From Aliikangiella coralliicola (GTDB taxonomy: Bacteria; Pseudomonadota; Gammaproteobacteria; Enterobacterales; Kangiellaceae), in the NCBI RefSeq assembly GCF_007004725.1, contig NZ_ML660163.1, positions 390,915-454,914 of the forward strand: a DNA stretch of 64,000 nt. Direction: 5' to 3'. Each line of letters starts with the position of its first letter. Position 1 is the stretch's first letter. Position numbers and translations under genes: made by a program. This document shows positions 2,665 to 14,915 of this stretch, piece by piece. A model generated the notes under the pieces. That model was not told the DNA's origin and searched no databases. It saw only the letters and a list, made by a program, of their open reading frames with translations.

Positions 2665-4815
2665 ATGATGAAAAAATTTATACAATTAATCTTCAGAAAT
2701 GGCCTTCCCTGGCTATTTTTTTTCGCAAGCTTTCAGAACTTTGTTCAGGCAAAAGACGGAGACAAAATCCTCATACCGGCTCAACAAAATCTCCAATGGC
2801 TAACCAATACCGGAAACTCAAAAGGCGCCCATGATCAACTCGTCAACTTTCCCACAGATGATAAAAGTTATCGTAGTATCATAATGCACCTCAACCTGGG
2901 ATGTGCAGACAATGGCTGTAACGATTGGGACTATTTCGCCAGAATAGAAGCGTGGATTCCCAAAGTAGAAAGCCCGCTGAATTTCGAAGACTACGAGATT
3001 TATGAACTTGGCAGAATAATAACGCCGTACGCAGGTTATATGAGCCGAGGATTGAAAGGGTTTGATAATAACTGGCAGGCAAACTATCAATTTGATGTGA
3101 CTGATTTCACTCCAATTCTCAAGGGCGATGTCAAAATCAGGGCTTTTTATGGTGGCTGGAAAGACCCTGCACGTAATACCGGATTTAAAGTTTCCGTCAA
3201 TTTCGAATTGACCGAAGGAACACCGCCCAGAGATGTCACCTCACTCAATCATGTTTATTTTGGGCGTGATGGAAGATGGCGATATAAAGATTCAAACACC
3301 ATGGAATCCCTTTACCTCACACCAAAAACCCTTGACCTGAGTAACGCCGACAGCGCCGAATTTTTGCTTAATATTACCGGCCATGGGCACGCTTTGGGCG
3401 CAGAGGGGCGACTTTGTGGAGAGTTTTGTTCCCGTGAATATTATCTAAATGTTGACCAACAAATTGTGGCACAAAATGAAATTCCATTAAAAGATTGCGG
3501 TCTAACACCTGTCTATCCTCAAGCTGGAACCTGGATTTTAAGTCGGGCAAACTGGTGCCCGGGAGAAGCGGTTTATCCTGAGCGTATGAAGGTTCCTCTG
3601 CCTAGCAAAAAGCAGTCTGTTTTAATCGACCTCGATATGGAGGATTTTACCTGGCGTCCCGGCCCTTTTGGCAAACAGCCGCCTTACTACAACATTAGCG
3701 CAGTTGTTGTTGGTTATGGCGCCCCCAACTTCGATAACGACGCTACCCTGTTAGCGATAAAAAGTCCGAACAAACTTGCCCAGTATCGAGATAATATCAG
3801 CTGTGGCGGCGCAGTCATTGAAATTCGCAATTCGGGTTCTCAACCACTGACTCATTTGGCGATTGAGTATGGTGTAATTGGTGGACGCTCGGTCAAATAT
3901 CAATGGCAAGGCCATGTAGATTCCCAGCAAGTTAGTGAGATTACTTTGCCGGAATTTAACTGGGGCACCTGGGAAGGAGAAAACCGTTTTTTCGTTAACA
4001 TCACTTTACCTAATGGGCAGGTAGACGAATGGGAAAAAGACAACCGGCTAACGAGCCAATTTGATAAACCGATCCGTATTAATGAAAAAAGTTATTTTAC
4101 TATCACAACCAATAAAGTTGCGTCAGAAAATAGCTATGAAATTCGAAGCGCCAGTGGTGAAAAAATTATCGGCAACAATCAACTTGATAATCAGACTCTT
4201 TACGAAGAACCTTTGGACAACTTGGCCGCAGGCTGTTACACGGCAACCATTAACGATAAAACCAACTTCGGTAATGGAAATGCAATCTGGGTTGGCAATG
4301 GTTTGTCCTGGCCATTTACCGACGCTAGAACAGGCAGAGGAACTGCCAGTTTATCTTATCAAGATGAGAATCAACACTTAGTTATTCAAAAAGCGATACA
4401 AGCTGACTTTGGCACTCAAATTAACATTCCTTTTACTAAAGGTTTCACCTTAGGTCACTGTAATGAAACCACTTGGCGGTCAGATAAAACTTATGCCAAT
4501 GCGGGAGAATTAGTTTCTTTCAAAGGTAAAGTTTATCGGTCTCGACGATGGACTCATGGTTTCTCACCTGACCAAAGCGGTCCCTGGGATCCCTGGGAGA
4601 ATTTAGGCGACTGTACTGCTGATCCGCGTCCAATTGATATAACTCCACCTTATTGTGGTTATCCAGCCTGGCAAAAAAATAAAGTCTATGCTGCGGTTGA
4701 TACCCATGTAGAATTTTCAGGAAAGGTGTATCGTTCTCGTTATTGGTCACAGGGCTTTTCGCCTGACGAAAGCGGCCCCTGGGATCCGTGGGCTTTTGTC
4801 AGAAAATGTGAGTAA
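2665..4815 (+). CDS. Secreted PNGase F-like glycoamidase with two C-terminal CBM5/12-type modules
   Basis: The 716-aa product has an N-terminal signal peptide of about 29 residues. Residues ~70-360 carry peptide-N-glycosidase F family features: the CxxxxCNDWDYF block (C80, C85, D89; D89 probably corresponds to the catalytic WD aspartate of PNGase F), ITPYAGY, FDVTDFTPILKGDVKIRAFY and a VNFELTEGTPPRDV junction between the two eight-stranded lobes. A CARDB-like beta domain follows at ~375-470. Two near-identical repeats at ~599-650 and ~666-716 (W…Y…V.F.GKVYRSR.W..GFSPD.SGPWDPW) look like chitin/cellulose-binding CBM5/12 modules. Expected role: extracellular removal of N-glycans from glycoproteins, held on a polysaccharide surface. 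The ATG follows an AGGATCA ribosome site. The family call is strong; activity is inferred. Confidence 0.82.
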   Translation: MMKKFIQLIFRNGLPWLFFFASFQNFVQAKDGDKILIPAQQNLQWLTNTGNSKGAHDQLVNFPTDDKSYRSIIMHLNLGCADNGCNDWDYFARIEAWIPKVESPLNFEDYEIYELGRIITPYAGYMSRGLKGFDNNWQANYQFDVTDFTPILKGDVKIRAFYGGWKDPARNTGFKVSVNFELTEGTPPRDVTSLNHVYFGRDGRWRYKDSNTMESLYLTPKTLDLSNADSAEFLLNITGHGHALGAEGRLCGEFCSREYYLNVDQQIVAQNEIPLKDCGLTPVYPQAGTWILSRANWCPGEAVYPERMKVPLPSKKQSVLIDLDMEDFTWRPGPFGKQPPYYNISAVVVGYGAPNFDNDATLLAIKSPNKLAQYRDNISCGGAVIEIRNSGSQPLTHLAIEYGVIGGRSVKYQWQGHVDSQQVSEITLPEFNWGTWEGENRFFVNITLPNGQVDEWEKDNRLTSQFDKPIRINEKSYFTITTNKVASENSYEIRSASGEKIIGNNQLDNQTLYEEPLDNLAAGCYTATINDKTNFGNGNAIWVGNGLSWPFTDARTGRGTASLSYQDENQHLVIQKAIQADFGTQINIPFTKGFTLGHCNETTWRSDKTYANAGELVSFKGKVYRSRRWTHGFSPDQSGPWDPWENLGDCTADPRPIDITPPYCGYPAWQKNKVYAAVDTHVEFSGKVYRSRYWSQGFSPDESGPWDPWAFVRKCE

Positions 4816-4852
4816 CGAAATTATCCAATCGCTTTATTGAAAAAGCGTAAAT

Positions 4853-4884
4853 AAAAAAATGCGCCTGTCCGCTGGCGCATTTTT
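4853..4884. terminator. Bidirectional hairpin terminator between convergent genes
   Basis: An A-run plus TGCGCC, an 8-nt loop, then GGCGCA and a T-run form a perfect stem that reads as a Rho-independent terminator in both directions. It sits between the convergent genes ending at 4815 and 4931. Confidence 0.85.
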
Positions 4885-4930
4885 CAAGTCATAACTCCAT
4901 TGATGATACAGTTATTCCTTTAGGGCACTG

Positions 4931-9723: not shown

Positions 9724-10368
9724 TCACCATCTTTTCGACATACTAAGCACAACATGGCTTCCTGCCAACTCTCTTAAAAGATCATCGTTATCATTATAAG
9801 CATATGAAAGACCGAAATTTAAATCATTGTAGTCTCGAAAAATTCCCACACTATAATCAACAAAATCTTTAGCATCCAGGTTCTCCGCGTCAAGCTTTCC
9901 GACATGAAAGGTTAGCTTGTATAAATCGGCAAACCGATAATGAGCGTTAAAATCGAGATAACGCTCATTCAATTTGTTATTTTGATAATAATGCAAACTA
10001 TAATTATCAATAATTGAGCCGACAAACCATTCACCAGAATCAACATTATCAACTTTGGTAAAAACGTGTTCGATGTATCCAACGTCCCAGGTCAAATATT
10101 CCGTTTCAAACTTCTTACCAAGTACCACATCAATCAACGTCTCGCGAGTACCGCCATTGATCTGAATATTGCTAAAAGCCACTGCGCCAGAGTAAAATTC
10201 AGAATGCTTGTAATGTGCTCCGCCTATCACCGACTGTTCTTCATTCGTTAACGAAAAGCCCCTTAGTAATCGATCAGAAACCAGGCTTAAATCAGCTGAA
10301 ACAGATTGATAAGCTTGTGCTTGAAAAGATAAAAATAGTAGTAAAAAAGCTGCGTATTTATTGTTCAT
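9724..10368 (-). CDS. TorF-family putative outer-membrane porin/barrel
   Basis: 214 aa with a signal peptide (cleaved after AQA, about residue 19). The mature protein starts with ADLSLVSDRLLRGFSLTNEEQSVIGGAHY, cut here into the recognisable blocks SLVSDRLLRGFS and GGAHYKHS, typical of the TorF (Gcw_chp) family of small barrel proteins. The rest alternates polar and hydrophobic residues as expected for beta strands and ends in an aromatic residue (KRW), as outer-membrane barrels do. Function in the family is poorly known; TorF is proposed to be a TonB-independent porin. It has an AGGTG ribosome site and its own terminator at 9644-9677. Its upstream neighbour, an enoyl-CoA hydratase, is 117 nt away and probably unrelated. 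Confidence 0.75.
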   Translation of the reverse strand: MNNKYAAFLLLFLSFQAQAYQSVSADLSLVSDRLLRGFSLTNEEQSVIGGAHYKHSEFYSGAVAFSNIQINGGTRETLIDVVLGKKFETEYLTWDVGYIEHVFTKVDNVDSGEWFVGSIIDNYSLHYYQNNKLNERYLDFNAHYRFADLYKLTFHVGKLDAENLDAKDFVDYSVGIFRDYNDLNFGLSYAYNDNDDLLRELAGSHVVLSMSKRW

Positions 10369-10485: not shown

Positions 10486-11250
10486 CTACCGATGCTTAAA
10501 GGCAGGCTCGCGCTTTTCAATAAAAGCGCTCATCCCCTCCTTTTGATCCTCTGATGCGAAGAGCGCATGAAAAACACGACGCTCGAATAAAACACCTTCG
10601 CGTAAACTCAATTCAAGCGCTTGCTCCACGGTTTCTCTTGCTGCCATTGCCGATGGCTTACCATAAGAAGCGATAACTTCTGCCACACTAATCGTTTCTC
10701 GTAATAAATCCTTCGCAGGAAAAACTCGCGCTACCAGGCCTGAACGCTCGGCTTCCTCCGCACTCATTTTTCTTCCAGTTAAAATCATGTCCATGGCTTT
10801 TGATTTTCCGATGAGCTTGGTCAAACGCTGCGTCCCCCCCATGCCAGGAATAACACCTAACTTTATTTCTGGTTGTCCAAAACTCGCTGAGTCTGCTGCA
10901 AAAATCATGTCGCACATCATCGCTAACTCACAACCTCCGCCGAAAGCGTAGCCGGATACTGCTGCGATTTTTGGGGTGCGTAATGCACAAAATGCATCCC
11001 AGCCGGAAAAAAAATCTTCGTTAAACATTTGCAGAAAAGATTTATCTTTCATCTCCTTGATATCGGCTCCTGCAGCAAATGCTTTTTCTGAGCCTGTTAC
11101 AATGATGCAACCAACTTCCGGATCACTATCCAACAGCTGTAATCTGGAAATTAATTCTTGCATCACCTCAGAATTTAAAGCGTTGAGCGCTTCTGGTCGG
11201 TTGAGCTGCGCAATAGCGACTCGTCCAACTCTTTCGATCAATATATTCAT
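10486..11250 (-). CDS. Enoyl-CoA hydratase/isomerase (crotonase family)
   Basis: 254 aa crotonase. It carries the NRPEALNAL start block, [11 protein letters not shown] (oxyanion-hole loop), [15 protein letters not shown] with the first catalytic glutamate, and [20 protein letters not shown] with the second, so a hydratase rather than an isomerase-only member. It would hydrate 2-trans-enoyl-CoA in fatty-acid or amino-acid breakdown. The ATG at 11250 is preferred over a GTG one codon upstream because GGAGA then lies 7 nt before it. A 17-nt perfect inverted repeat sits just upstream at 11280-11296. It follows the adenylation/reductase operon by ~95 nt on the same strand and could be its last gene, but its own operator-like site suggests separate control. 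Confidence 0.88.
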
Positions 11251-11279
11251 CACTTATCTCCATAATCTAAAATTTTTTA

Positions 11280-11347: not shown

Positions 11348-12781
11348 TTAAGAATCCCAAATAGCTCCATAGGCAGGTATGCCGCGGCTTTCCATTCCGT
11401 AAACCACCTGCCAGGTTAGTTTTTTATTGGAAATACAGATCACAGCTTCTGCGTCAAAAGCTTTATGGGCTTGATAAGCTAACTTGACCATGTCAGGTTT
11501 GCCTTTCGCGTCGGTGTCCCAAATCAAAGCATCAGGCTGCACTGCCAGAATTTCATCGACCAACTCATCGCCATAGGTTTTGCGCGGATTTCGAGTTGCC
11601 CAAATCAACAGCGAAGGAACTTGTTGCGAAAGTAAGTGCGGTAAACAAGGGCCAATACCGCTACCCGTGGCTACCCAGATGACGCGTTTAAACAATTGAT
11701 CGACGTTGCCGACACCGGCGGTGGTAATTCCCTTAACCCACACATGTGAGGGCAAGTCGTCAATGAATTTGCCGGTCCAGTCACCTGCTCGGGAAATAGT
11801 TAAACGAAAACCATCTTCTCCCGGCGTTGGAACATTGGCGAAGGAATGCCATTCCATCAATGGACTACGACTCACCGCTGTTGACGAACCAGCAAATGGT
11901 GTTTCTCCATGATTGAAACGCACCAATGCTGCATGGGATGAAGGTTTAATTATTTCAACCGGCACTTTACGTAACCTCAACCAGGGCAACAGGATGCTTG
12001 TAGTTAAAATAATTAACATCCAGAAAACAGCGGAGCTCAACAATGCATTACCCAAAGTCATTTCTCCACGATTAGCATCGACAAACAAAATACTTTGCGC
12101 CCAGAACAAAACCAGTGCAGTCCAACCGCCAAACCGGTGACTCATTTCAAACTGATTATGGAAACGTGCTCTTATCGGTGGTAATGCCATCAGAATCATA
12201 AATACCAAAATACCGAATAACGCGTAAGTAACAGACAAGAGTCCGCTGGAAACGCCAGGTAGCCCATTTGCCTGATGATAAAATAGCGAGCCAACGTAAA
12301 TTCCAAACCAGACAGTTGCGGCCGTTGCGCTACCACTATGAAGCCCGCCAAAGTGATAAACTTTTCCTAACACTCGGCGAATAGACAAAGGCCAGCTGGT
12401 TGGTACGCTGGTCGCCAGGTAGAAAAGTAGATTGATGAAATATTGCTGTCGAACAAGAATAGCAATGGAAAAATTAATCAGTATCATATTCGATAATTTA
12501 TCCAGCGCTATACCTCCACTACTCCACCAATTTCCGCTTCCTAACGCATGTCCAAGTACAACAAGATTGATCACCGCGATGAGCACAAACAAGCGATGAT
12601 AATGCATCAATACAGGGTGTTTGCTGATACGCCTTAACAAACTTTGCTGTGGCGGCAGATCAAGTTGAACTAAAGATGAAATATTTGCTTCTTCTAGCTT
12701 TTGTTTAACCTGAGCGGATTCAGGCGGCTGCTCAAATTTATATTTGTGCGGCCGCTCTACGTAAACGTGAGTATCCATCAC
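11348..12781 (-). CDS. Six-helix membrane flavoprotein oxidoreductase, TmpA/TmpL C-terminal-like
   Basis: 477 aa. After a ~55-residue cytoplasmic start come six hydrophobic segments (about 57-80, 95-125, 151-170, 182-204, 219-236, 246-271) with histidines near the membrane (HYHRLF, YHFGGLHSG, EMSHRFGGW). A ferredoxin-NADP-reductase-like part follows: FRLTISRAGDWTGKF for flavin and IWVATGSGIGPCLPHL for the pyridine nucleotide. This is the layout of the fungal TmpA/TmpL membrane oxidoreductases. The start overlaps the upstream adenylation gene: GTG at 12781 has a GGAGG 7 nt before it, and ATG at 12778 is the alternative. Tight coupling implies joint function: in fungi an AMP-binding domain and this reductase are one polypeptide. 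Heme binding and the electron acceptor are unknown. Confidence 0.72.
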   Translation of the reverse strand: MMDTHVYVERPHKYKFEQPPESAQVKQKLEEANISSLVQLDLPPQQSLLRRISKHPVLMHYHRLFVLIAVINLVVLGHALGSGNWWSSGGIALDKLSNMILINFSIAILVRQQYFINLLFYLATSVPTSWPLSIRRVLGKVYHFGGLHSGSATAATVWFGIYVGSLFYHQANGLPGVSSGLLSVTYALFGILVFMILMALPPIRARFHNQFEMSHRFGGWTALVLFWAQSILFVDANRGEMTLGNALLSSAVFWMLIILTTSILLPWLRLRKVPVEIIKPSSHAALVRFNHGETPFAGSSTAVSRSPLMEWHSFANVPTPGEDGFRLTISRAGDWTGKFIDDLPSHVWVKGITTAGVGNVDQLFKRVIWVATGSGIGPCLPHLLSQQVPSLLIWATRNPRKTYGDELVDEILAVQPDALIWDTDAKGKPDMVKLAYQAHKAFDAEAVICISNKKLTWQVVYGMESRGIPAYGAIWDS

Positions 12782-14670
12782 GACAAAGCCTCCACTTTTT
12801 TAGTTTTGTTTTTGAATTTAGTGTTGTTTGGGATCTTGTTTTGTATCGACGTTTTTTTTGTTTCTTCCGGGTTCTCTGCCATATTACGTAACGCTCTTTT
12901 ATCAACCTTTCCGCGACTGGTCATTGGCAACTGCTCCATGGCAACAATAGAAGACGGCATACAATAGTAAGGCAAGCGTTCTTTAACAGCAGCTCGAGCT
13001 TCATCCAGACACACGGTTGCAGGCGAAACAAAAGCAATTAGATTGCGATCGTCAAGCTTCAAGGTCACGGCAAGCTTACAGTGAGTTACTGATTCTAAAA
13101 CCGAAGAAACAGAATCGAGCTCAACACGAAATCCACAAATTTTGACTTGATCATCGGTTCGGCCAAAGTGTTCCAGTTCACCATCAGCAGTCCACCTGCC
13201 CAGATCTCTAGTACGGAACATTTTTCTACCATTTCCTAAAAATGGATCCGGCGCATACCGCTCTCGATTTAACTGCTCGTTATCAAGATAACCCGCGGAG
13301 ACACAGTCTCCTCCCGCCCACATTTCACCGATTTCACCAATGGAACAAGGCTGCTTGTTTTCATCAAGAATATAAACCGTATTGTTGGGCGTTGGCTTTC
13401 CAATGGTTAGTTGTTTGCAGCCACTATGGTAATGTTGTGCCGTATTAATAATGGTCGTTTCAGTCGGTCCACATGAATTATAAAATCGACAAAAAGACGA
13501 CCACTTATCTGCAAGTGGTAAAGGGCAAGGTTCGCCGGCGACCGCCGCTACTTTGATATTTTTGCATCGCTCGACATCTAGCGAACCTAGAACAGTTGGC
13601 GTGGCAATAACGACATCAGCAGACTCAACTGCCGCAGAAATATCACTACCACGAATAATCAAGGTAGCCCCATGCGCAAGGCATCCCCATATTTCCCAGG
13701 CGGCCATGTCAAACGCAATACTTAGTATTTGGGAGACCTTCATTCCTGATTTTATCCCCAAATTTCCCGGACTGGTCAGTAAAATATTACATAAGTTTGC
13801 GTGGGTCACTCGTACGCCATTAGGCTTGCCAGTGGTACCGGAAGTAAATAAAATAAAACATGTGTTGTCTCGACTAACTTCAACTGACGGTTTTGTATTC
13901 AATAAGTTTATCGATTTTTTTCCGTCTTCATTTTCGTTGAAGTTTGCTTTAATATTTTTGTTTGAAGCCCCGAGGTTATTTTTTTTACTGAGTAATTTTT
14001 TATTAAACTCGCTCCCATTAGCGCCTTTTCTGTTGTTCGAATTATCGAAAGGCTGAGCGATAAAGTCGTCTACCGCAATGCAGTGACATTTATCAGGCAC
14101 AGGAATTTTATTTTGTAAGTGAGCGAGCGTTAAGATAACTTTTGTTGAAGCAGCTTCAATCACATGTGCTAACTGTGATTCAGGTGCAACACCGACATGT
14201 TGCGGAACATAGCAAGCACCAACTTTCAAAGTCGCAACCATCCCTACCAACATTGGAATAGAACGCTGTAAAAAAAGTGCGACACTATCACCACTTGTAA
14301 TGCCGCATTCAGTGAGTAAAGCTGCAAGACAATTCGCCTGATAATCTAGCTCAGCGTAAGTAATCGACTCATTTTTATGGATGGCTGCAATAGCTTCAGG
14401 ATTAGCGGCGGCCTGAGCTTCAAATGCCTGGTGAATACAATCATAAGGAACTTCCGTTGTAATTCCCTGACCAAAATGCTCAAACAAAATCTGATCAGCA
14501 AAAGATAAACCTTCCATTGCTGACTTGCAAAAACTTTGCTTTATTGGTGTAGGGTAATATTCATCACCATCGAAGAAAGTTAAACTTTTAGCTTTACTTT
14601 TACCAATCAATTGATGAGGAACTTTCGACGCGTTAAAATCAGCAGACGTAGTTTGTTTAGACAAGTCCAT
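12778..14670 (-). CDS. Stand-alone NRPS-type adenylation enzyme (no carrier domain)
   Basis: 630 aa from the ATG at 14670. Adenylation core motifs are all visible: FILFTSGTTGKPNGV (A3), FDMAAWEIWGCLAHGA (A4), NSCGPTETTI (A5), RTRDLGRW (A7), GRTDDQVKICGFRVELD (A8) and SRGKVDKRAL with the catalytic lysine (A10). The A4 aspartate matching GrsA D235 is kept, so an alpha-amino acid is the likely substrate. Odd points: no phosphopantetheine carrier follows A10, only a ~35-residue Lys/Asn-rich tail; and a ~60-residue Asn/Lys-rich insertion (about 210-270) sits before A3. It forms an operon with a small protein upstream (TAATG junction) and a membrane reductase downstream (TGATG junction). It probably activates an amino or fatty acid as the adenylate for its partner reductase; the product is unknown. 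Confidence 0.82.
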   Translation of the reverse strand: MDLSKQTTSADFNASKVPHQLIGKSKAKSLTFFDGDEYYPTPIKQSFCKSAMEGLSFADQILFEHFGQGITTEVPYDCIHQAFEAQAAANPEAIAAIHKNESITYAELDYQANCLAALLTECGITSGDSVALFLQRSIPMLVGMVATLKVGACYVPQHVGVAPESQLAHVIEAASTKVILTLAHLQNKIPVPDKCHCIAVDDFIAQPFDNSNNRKGANGSEFNKKLLSKKNNLGASNKNIKANFNENEDGKKSINLLNTKPSVEVSRDNTCFILFTSGTTGKPNGVRVTHANLCNILLTSPGNLGIKSGMKVSQILSIAFDMAAWEIWGCLAHGATLIIRGSDISAAVESADVVIATPTVLGSLDVERCKNIKVAAVAGEPCPLPLADKWSSFCRFYNSCGPTETTIINTAQHYHSGCKQLTIGKPTPNNTVYILDENKQPCSIGEIGEMWAGGDCVSAGYLDNEQLNRERYAPDPFLGNGRKMFRTRDLGRWTADGELEHFGRTDDQVKICGFRVELDSVSSVLESVTHCKLAVTLKLDDRNLIAFVSPATVCLDEARAAVKERLPYYCMPSSIVAMEQLPMTSRGKVDKRALRNMAENPEETKKTSIQNKIPNNTKFKNKTKKVEALS

Positions 14671-14915
14671 TAGCAAACCTCCTTGTTACAATATTGATGT
14701 GCAGCTCCGTTTTCTACACGACTAAAAACCTTTTTAGCTTTAACCCTGACAAGCTCATTCTTATCGAGCTTGCTCTGAAGAAACATTTTTAAACCAGGTA
14801 GTTTGACATCAAACCAGGTATTCAAAAAATGTTTAGCAGAGAAAACAGGTACAACACAAGCTGGTATTCCTTTTAAAAATTTTCTTGTTATAGCGTTTCT
14901 GATGAGATCGGCCAT
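14670..14915 (-). CDS. Small basic protein, first gene of adenylation/reductase operon
   Basis: 81 aa, basic, with no recognised domain or signal peptide. The start is well supported: TAGGAG lies 8 nt before the ATG. A hydrophobic stretch (GIPACVVPVFSAKHFL, residues ~15-30) is followed by a lysine-rich middle and a C-terminus with two cysteines (YCNKEVC). Its last codons AAG-GAG-GTT are at the same time the Shine-Dalgarno of the adenylation gene, and its TAA overlaps that gene's ATG by one base, so translation is coupled. It might be an accessory subunit, a peptide substrate, or a chaperone-like partner comparable in size to MbtH proteins, although the MbtH tryptophan motifs are absent. Function unknown. 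Confidence 0.7.
   Translation of the reverse strand: MADLIRNAITRKFLKGIPACVVPVFSAKHFLNTWFDVKLPGLKMFLQSKLDKNELVRVKAKKVFSRVENGAAHQYCNKEVC
14678..14684 (-). promoter_or_regulatory. Shine-Dalgarno AAGGAGG inside the small gene, for the adenylation gene
   Basis: A consensus AAGGAGG ends 7 nt before the ATG at 14670 and decides that start over the TTG six nt upstream. It lies in frame within the KEV codons of the 81-residue protein. Confidence 0.85.

Follow-up and report, generated by a model that had tools for sequence, protein, structure and literature searches.

Gene content of the locus

The window analysed here, a 64,000-nucleotide stretch of contig NZ_ML660163.1 of Aliikangiella coralliicola, carries on its minus strand a candidate bacterial relative of the fungal TmpL system: genes for an adenylation enzyme (A), a membrane flavoprotein (F) and an enoyl-CoA hydratase (E), headed by a small open reading frame (ORF; S) and followed by a gene for a putative outer-membrane protein (OMP). 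An earlier note on this DNA had described S, A and F as three minus-strand genes with overlapping stop and start codons, and the coordinates agree, with the S/A junction reading TAATG and the A/F junction TGATG (Table 1). Its gene set was incomplete downstream, where E and OMP had been overlooked. Since counts of terminators and promoters at the operon were close to those of shuffled sequence, transcription as one unit is proposed from gene spacing only.

Table 1. Genes of the operon region, listed from the head of the operon (positions within the window).
Gene	Position	Strand	Properties
S	14670-14915	-	81-aa ORF, head of operon; orphan, no family match
A	12778-14670	-	630 aa; ATG within TAATG overlaps S stop; PF00501, E 1.9e-64
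F	11348-12781	-	477 aa counted from GTG; ATG of TGATG at 12778, overlapping A stop
E	10486-11253	-	255 aa, GTG-ATG start; 94 nt after F; NF004517
OMP (Gcw_chp)	9724-10368	-	117 nt after E; PF09694, 48.6 bits against a cut-off of 24

A, F and E recur together in at least six phyla

Relatives were retrieved with F from a genome collection by a pattern-based search that finds close relatives, and the retrieved loci are denoted by L-numbers. The scan gave 47 loci, with F 49-71% identical to that of the window, from at least six phyla: Bacteroidota, Chloroflexota, Actinomycetota, Pseudomonadota (gamma and alpha), Calditrichota and Bdellovibrionota. In 47/47 loci the gene immediately upstream of F is A (L003 shows the end of A only, at a contig edge), and E adjoins F downstream in 44/47, the contigs of the other three (L015, L028 and L038) stopping 159-379 nt past F. 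In 14 of the 47, all Bacteroidota, A and F form one continuous frame of 1003-1028 aa; this natural fusion, together with the predicted fold and the invariant GSGIGP motif of F described below, upholds the earlier proposal of a split, TmpL-like A-F pair. The fused protein of L002 was modelled with a pLDDT of 88.3 and a pTM of 0.57, the placement of its domains being uncertain. Thirteen further stretches from whole-genome searches, at least three of which repeat L005, L032 and L048 so that at most ten are new, have A in 13/13 and E in 11/13, the other two ending 174-382 nt past F.

The three genes also diverge in step. Mantel correlations over 42 loci were 0.913 for A-F, 0.865 for A-E and 0.835 for F-E, and values as high were reached in 0/2000 permutations (L003, L041, L045 and L049 were dropped, and L015, L028 and L038 are without E; L049 and L014, whose E rows are identical, are probably the same strain). 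F is present as a single copy in the window's own genome and in 2/61 relatives with that genome counted, and the only one of 369 sampled genomes of its class to carry F is again the window's own. Elsewhere, with the centre genome included each time, F occurs in 15/52 genomes of the genus of Aquimarina muelleri, 3/249 of the class of the Anaerolineae genome L048 and 8/296 of the class of Amycolatopsis. Compared in this way, A, F and E are shown to be a conserved, co-inherited and patchily distributed set. Because the window F is closer to those of Splendidivirga (70% identical) and a Chloroflexota genome (69%) than to those of Pleionea from its own family (61-63%), transfer between phyla is likely. 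A viral home was considered and rejected, as no relative was found in viral contigs.

S does not share in this conservation. The earlier note had placed the 81-residue protein at the head of a three-gene order to be sought in other genomes; the A-F part of that order recurs throughout, and S drops out of it. S has no Pfam or NCBIfam match, tblastn found no homologue near A in the loci (the sole match, in L035 at E 0.14, is a chance one away from A), and among 40 relatives it was found in none besides the window's own genome. Its codon score of 0.074 is borderline, higher than in 95% of spurious ORFs (0.066) and short of the value that 95% of true-gene windows exceed (0.085). A role for S as carrier or head component was rejected, as it is without homologue; it is probably a local ORF, perhaps a leader. 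At 4240-4377 of the Aquimarina loci L006, L008, L009, L019 and L044, a 45-aa ORF that is alike among them lies 15 nt before the fused A-F gene and is a possible leader peptide.

The adenylation enzyme has a near-constant amino-acid pocket

A is an adenylation enzyme of the nonribosomal peptide synthetase (NRPS) type, matching PF00501 and, slightly below the cut-off of 317.4, TIGR01733 (304 bits). Pfam found in it only PF00501 and a sub-cut-off PF13193, and no carrier or condensation domain; it thus lacks the carrier and condensation parts of an NRPS, a statement about A itself, as neighbours across all loci were without a systematic scan. The earlier description of a carrier-less enzyme with an amino-acid-anchoring Asp therefore stands: A keeps the Asp and the Lys that in GrsA hold the amino and carboxyl groups of the amino acid (PMC4804170).

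Mapped with GrsA numbering checked on 1amu, K517 being matched by motif only, the pocket of the window A reads D-M-W-I-A-A-S-I-I-K. Over 48 scorable rows (L003 left out) it reads D-M-W-(I/V)-(A/I)-A-(S/A/C/G)-I-(V/I)-K and is near-constant from Streptomyces to Aquimarina, with D, M, W, A, I and K invariant (D, W and I in 48/48, K in 49/49) and the other positions small or aliphatic. Given a pocket that is nearly invariant and hydrophobically lined, the likely substrate of A, as read from its sequence, is a single hydrophobic amino acid. The G of GPTE is invariant in 31/31 aligned rows (the alignment holds 31 of 49 rows), and relatives of A upstream of F are 49-61% identical by tblastn and 52-66% in that alignment. 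A Lys/Asn-rich insertion of about 50 residues in the window A (13880-14060) is not conserved in relatives.

The membrane flavoprotein has a predicted NADPH-oxidase fold

F itself has no Pfam or NCBIfam match at E<=1, and searched by sequence against solved structures it gave one meaningless match only (E 0.94). An AlphaFold2 model built on 42 rows (mean pLDDT 85.5) has a helical half and a FAD/NAD(P)-type half; Foldseek ranked mouse DUOX1 first (E 1.1e-12) and SpNOX second (8qt6, E 4.1e-12, TM-score 0.57/0.66) and also matched NOX2 and NOX5, the eleven top-ranked NOX/DUOX matches being 13-16% identical to F. PF01794 (Ferric_reduct) matched weakly in 7/42 relatives of F, the window F not among them, and in a profile search the stretch EWHSFANVP...RAGDWT aligned to the FAD motif of NOX2 at only E 0.14. 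On the model, the predicted fold of F is of the NOX/ferric-reductase type with a FAD/NAD(P)H half, which accords with the membrane oxidoreductase of the earlier note. We rejected the idea that F is without relatives, as fold and profile searches place it with NOX/FRD proteins although it has no Pfam match alone.

The alignment of F holds 42 of 49 rows, the near-copies L006, L008, L009, L011, L019 and L044 and the frame-broken L045 being omitted. All 42 rows share GSGIGP at residues 373-378 and W475, the third residue from the end, and the flavin-stacking F397 of the 399-residue SpNOX is likewise third from the end (PMC11564096). Residues 326-330 read RLTIS, of which R, L and S are invariant; the letters differ from those of the RLHFD FAD motif of TmpL.

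Histidines H143, H148 and H208 are present in 42/42 rows and H215 in 41/42. NOX proteins hold two hemes through two His pairs in transmembrane helices 3 and 5 (TM3 and TM5), and this arrangement was not found in F, for which residue matching to NOX is weak: the predicted TM5 of the window F (208-237) has His at 208 and 215 only, and position 228, which lies 13 residues past H215 as H142 lies 13 past H129 in SpNOX (PMC11564096) and would serve an outer heme, is His in 0/42 rows. We infer from these residues that F holds one heme, not two. Three points weigh on the other side: His stands at 229, one residue past the expected outer position, in 6/42 relatives and late in TM3 (169) in 14/42, and the alignment to NOX2 behind the heme assignment is very weak (0.7 bits over the stretch concerned).

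Homologues of F also stand in other settings. One (52% identical; L050, 9100-10272), on a Pantoea piersonii plasmid, adjoins an MFS transporter gene and is a TmpA-like bacterial stand-alone; distant ones (31-32%) on plasmids of Calothrix (L051, 6475-7767) and Fischerella (L052, 8911-10203) are each followed by a gene for an HlyD-type membrane-fusion protein, with no A or E in the stretch. Plasmids gave no match to A at E 1e-100 or better. A single short Chloroflexota contig (L012) carries two copies of F, at 2-757 and 3602-4918.

The operon hydratases form their own clade

E matches the enoyl-CoA hydratase family NF004517 with 407.4 bits against a cut-off of 396, and its stretches GGGCEL and GQPE, which we take to have a catalytic role in hydratases, are conserved at >=85% of 46 rows. 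Of 45 operon rows, 44 group in a clade of their own (support 100/98) when placed in a tree with 18 paralogue rows, a tree that has several long branches and an incompletely settled bootstrap. The paralogues are 17 of 38 non-operon matches in the same genomes, those given as loci; the eighteenth row, L066, is the L041 operon gene again. The separate clade argues that E is a dedicated part of the operon, and an adjacent ordinary housekeeping hydratase was rejected on the same ground, L041 excepted. In Aliamphritea spongicola (L045, 6001-8074), F and E lie in shifted pieces, through decay or sequencing error.

A putative envelope gene and an apparently exchangeable cassette core in Aquimarina

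The OMP gene encodes a small protein of the Gcw_chp family with a start that by eye resembles a signal peptide, which suggests an outer-membrane location. Pleionea L014 has a Gcw_chp homologue 54% identical to that of the window in the same place after E. In Bacteroidota the place is taken by DUF6733 (PF20507), present in 15/15 loci with enough DNA (the contig of L021 ends; the family was checked by Pfam in L002, L004 and L018) and not named in the literature searched; BLAST found no similarity between the Gcw_chp proteins of Pleionea or the window and the DUF6733 protein of L002. Other small genes follow E in L046 and L041, without a Pfam match above cut-off, and a lipoprotein-looking gene does so in L047. 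Within the class of Splendidivirga, DUF6733 occurs in 5/395 sampled genomes, four of them above cut-off including Splendidivirga itself; one, L141, has the order A-F-E-DUF6733 again with A and F unfused, and the divergent copies of L140 and L142 stand by themselves.

A sample of 52 Aquimarina genomes has DUF6733 in 26, namely 15/15 with F and 11/37 without. In 10 of the 11 F-less genomes, DUF6733 ends another set, comprising DUF4440, a PLP decarboxylase, an acyl carrier protein (ACP), an AMP-ligase and an alpha/beta hydrolase (families checked on L103); the eleventh, L102, has a divergent copy, alone. The ligase and decarboxylase best match the exosortase-A-associated families TIGR03098 and TIGR03099, below the cut-offs (431 of 592 and 317 of 478 bits), a likeness by family match. 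F and E are unrelated to this alternative core, and A shares only the adenylation fold with its ligase (21-24% identity).

Both sets occupy the same site. Genes that by eye are ppx-like and Crp-like flank one side of the alternative set in 10/10 genomes and likewise of 12/13 fused Flavobacteriaceae loci (not L013), and a miaE-like gene lies on the opposite side in 8/10 fetched stretches, being just outside the stretch in G470 and on another contig in G489. G449 carries both core sets, at two places. Neither set was found in 27 genomes, where 'neither' means no F and no set found via DUF6733, the alternative set having had no search of its own. Of 19 such genomes fetched, 13 have the order ppx-barrel-miaE, without a Crp-like match and with the space between the barrel gene and miaE free of ORFs of >=90 aa, one (L128) has three other genes and five are not syntenic. 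Judged by this pattern of swaps and empty sites, the Crp-like gene behaves together with the core and DUF6733 like an inserted cassette in which one core can replace the other. Genes that by eye resemble two-component regulators adjoin the cassette in L018, L026, L045, L046 and L141, from several phyla, the Crp-like gene standing there instead in Aquimarina.

An unrelated pathway at the same Aquimarina site before the same OMP family speaks for interchangeable products; that the two pathways do make such products and serve one role is quite possible, if a little short of an even bet.

Relation to fungal TmpL and other systems

Two fungi require TmpL, reported in 2009, for virulence and redox balance, and normal sporulation in Aspergillus nidulans depends on the TmpL relatives TmpA and TmpB. 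TmpL, TmpB and ChNPS12 of filamentous fungi (Alternaria, Aspergillus and Cochliobolus) have a carrier-less adenylation domain, a membrane region and a FAD/NAD(P) region, in that order (PMC2766074, PMC2823734), the order of A and F. The GSGIGP motif that is invariant in bacterial F is found in TmpL (PMC2766074), and the D, W, G, I and K of PheA are conserved in TmpB as they are in bacterial A; for TmpB a hydrophobic amino acid has been proposed as the substrate (PMC4804170). Next to tmpB in A. nidulans, and conserved among several Aspergilli, lies a gene for a putative enoyl-CoA hydratase (PMC4804170), a parallel to E in the bacterial operon; the accessible part of PMC5561558 shows no TmpL-hydratase cluster. 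The fungal proteins differ in being one chain, which in bacteria is split into two genes in the window and fused in the 14 Bacteroidota loci, and the bacterial operon differs in its link to an envelope-looking protein in many Gram-negatives. TmpA of A. nidulans, an F without adenylation domain, resembles the Pantoea plasmid copy and differs from the window F, which is coupled to A and E. NOX proteins (SpNOX, NOX2 and DUOX1) share with F the overall fold and, weakly, the FAD-binding motif, and differ from it in the low identity, the His at the outer-heme position of TM5 and the absence of such partner enzymes.

TmpL was stated to occur in filamentous fungi only (PMC2766074). The earlier note held the system to be undescribed in bacteria, which applies to the operon and not to its adenylation domain: the literature searched, with most subscription papers outside it, has no description of a bacterial A-F-E operon, while stand-alone A domains of Hahella and Salinispora were already nested in the fungal ChNPS12 clade in 2010 (PMC2823734). 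The accessible part of that paper makes no mention of F or E beside them; it compared transfer from fungus to bacterium with an origin predating the split and preferred the second.

Discussion

We consider the operon very probably a bacterial TmpL-type system. The whole explanation, a TmpL-type pathway with A, F and E as its core and an envelope protein alongside in many Gram-negatives, has in our view slightly better than even prospects, and the chemical order proposed for A, F and E is speculative and rather doubtful in its particulars. A would adenylate one fixed hydrophobic L-amino acid with ATP and, being without a carrier protein, hand it to coenzyme A (CoA). F would draw electrons from NAD(P)H and pass them via FAD to a heme close to the cytosolic face; as the outer heme of NOX is seemingly missing, they would probably be spent in the membrane, not on superoxide outside, and would be used to oxidise or desaturate the activated amino acid, directly or via O2 activation. 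E, with its hydratase signature kept, would hydrate or otherwise process the unsaturated CoA thioester, and the small amino-acid-derived product may act at the cell envelope, where OMP would handle or sense it.

Several observations count against this explanation or parts of it. Homology to TmpL is likely and rests on architecture, fold, motif, neighbouring hydratase gene and those pocket residues that papers name, the fungal side being known from descriptions; CoA as acceptor, the amino acid, the oxidation step and the product are proposals. The Pantoea plasmid F has neither A nor E within 9 kb, which argues that F also has a use of its own. The operon hydratase of L041 (7336-8100) belongs to a different lineage in the same place, a replacement which suggests that the hydratase step, not the gene, is required. 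The outer-membrane label of OMP was assigned by eye. The examined loci of Pseudomonas, Marinibactrum, Oceanospirillaceae, alphaproteobacteria, actinomycetes and Chloroflexota, not all of them annotated, showed no recognisable DUF6733 or Gcw_chp-like gene downstream of E. Divergent copies of DUF6733 (25-31% identical) lie away from both pathways in L102, L140 and L142, and a common DUF6733 may reflect a shared site or shared regulation and need not mean a shared product.

An alternative interpretation makes F a bacterial ferric reductase or NADPH oxidase that serves redox homeostasis, with A and E doing no more than provide it with a ligand or regulator. The NOX fold of F is consistent with this, as are the altered levels or tolerance of reactive oxygen species on loss of TmpL in two fungi (PMC2766074) and the gene after E in four Pseudomonas loci, which is one cluster and catalase-like (PF00199) in the scanned member L031, but we consider it unlikely because the TM5 His for the outer heme, which in NOX passes electrons to outside O2, seems absent, because A is kept in 47/47 loci and E in every testable locus, and because conidia of the A. 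nidulans tmpB mutant are not sensitive to H2O2 (PMC4804170). The membership of E in NF004517, the annotated IclR-family regulator near the Pantoea F and the IclR-like genes (by eye) near three Pseudomonas copies might point to an amino-acid breakdown operon, in which A would make a CoA ester from an amino or keto acid and E would be a hydratase of ordinary beta-oxidation. That reading is improbable: the operon hydratases stand apart from the 17 tested paralogues of the same genomes, there is no dehydrogenase or thiolase among A, F and E, the pocket of A is of the NRPS amino-acid type, and the distribution is patchy, with an envelope-looking partner.

The reductive pathway put forward in the earlier note, with F reducing the activated acid to an aldehyde or alcohol, would make use of the NAD(P)H/FAD half of F, and carboxylic acid reductases are known to reduce acids at the expense of ATP. 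To our knowledge, however, such enzymes use a carrier and a short-chain-dehydrogenase-type reductase, neither of which was found in S, A, F or E by Pfam and NCBIfam, and NOX-type proteins hand single electrons to heme, an electron chain that is not an acyl reductase; this pathway is thus very improbable. Chance neighbourhood with a coincidental fusion, in favour of which only the sparse distribution speaks (1/369 sampled genomes of the class, the window's own), is refuted by the gene-order counts, the order being kept across at least six phyla with A, F and E co-varying, and its probability is negligible.

The TmpL-type reading leads to a broader and tentative proposal, one well short of an even bet: that TmpL did not arise in fungi but belongs to an ancient and mobile pathway of bacteria made up of A, F and E, and that in Aquimarina the A-F-E and the carrier-protein/PLP-decarboxylase sets are exchangeable cores of one regulated cassette, which closes with the same envelope protein in both cases. 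If true, nature would have two unrelated routes to a single envelope or signal molecule derived from an amino acid, and the sporulation and redox effects of TmpL in fungi would stem from a related molecule. The operon adds to the NADPH-oxidase superfamily a single-heme-looking branch tied to a biosynthetic enzyme and, found in bacteria of soil and sea with the same parts as the fungal system, establishes A, F and E as the minimal gene set. Among sister species, some carry the pathway, some a substitute and some an empty site, which makes a natural comparison, and as the operon allows single-gene deletions and expression in a laboratory host, what TmpL makes becomes directly testable.

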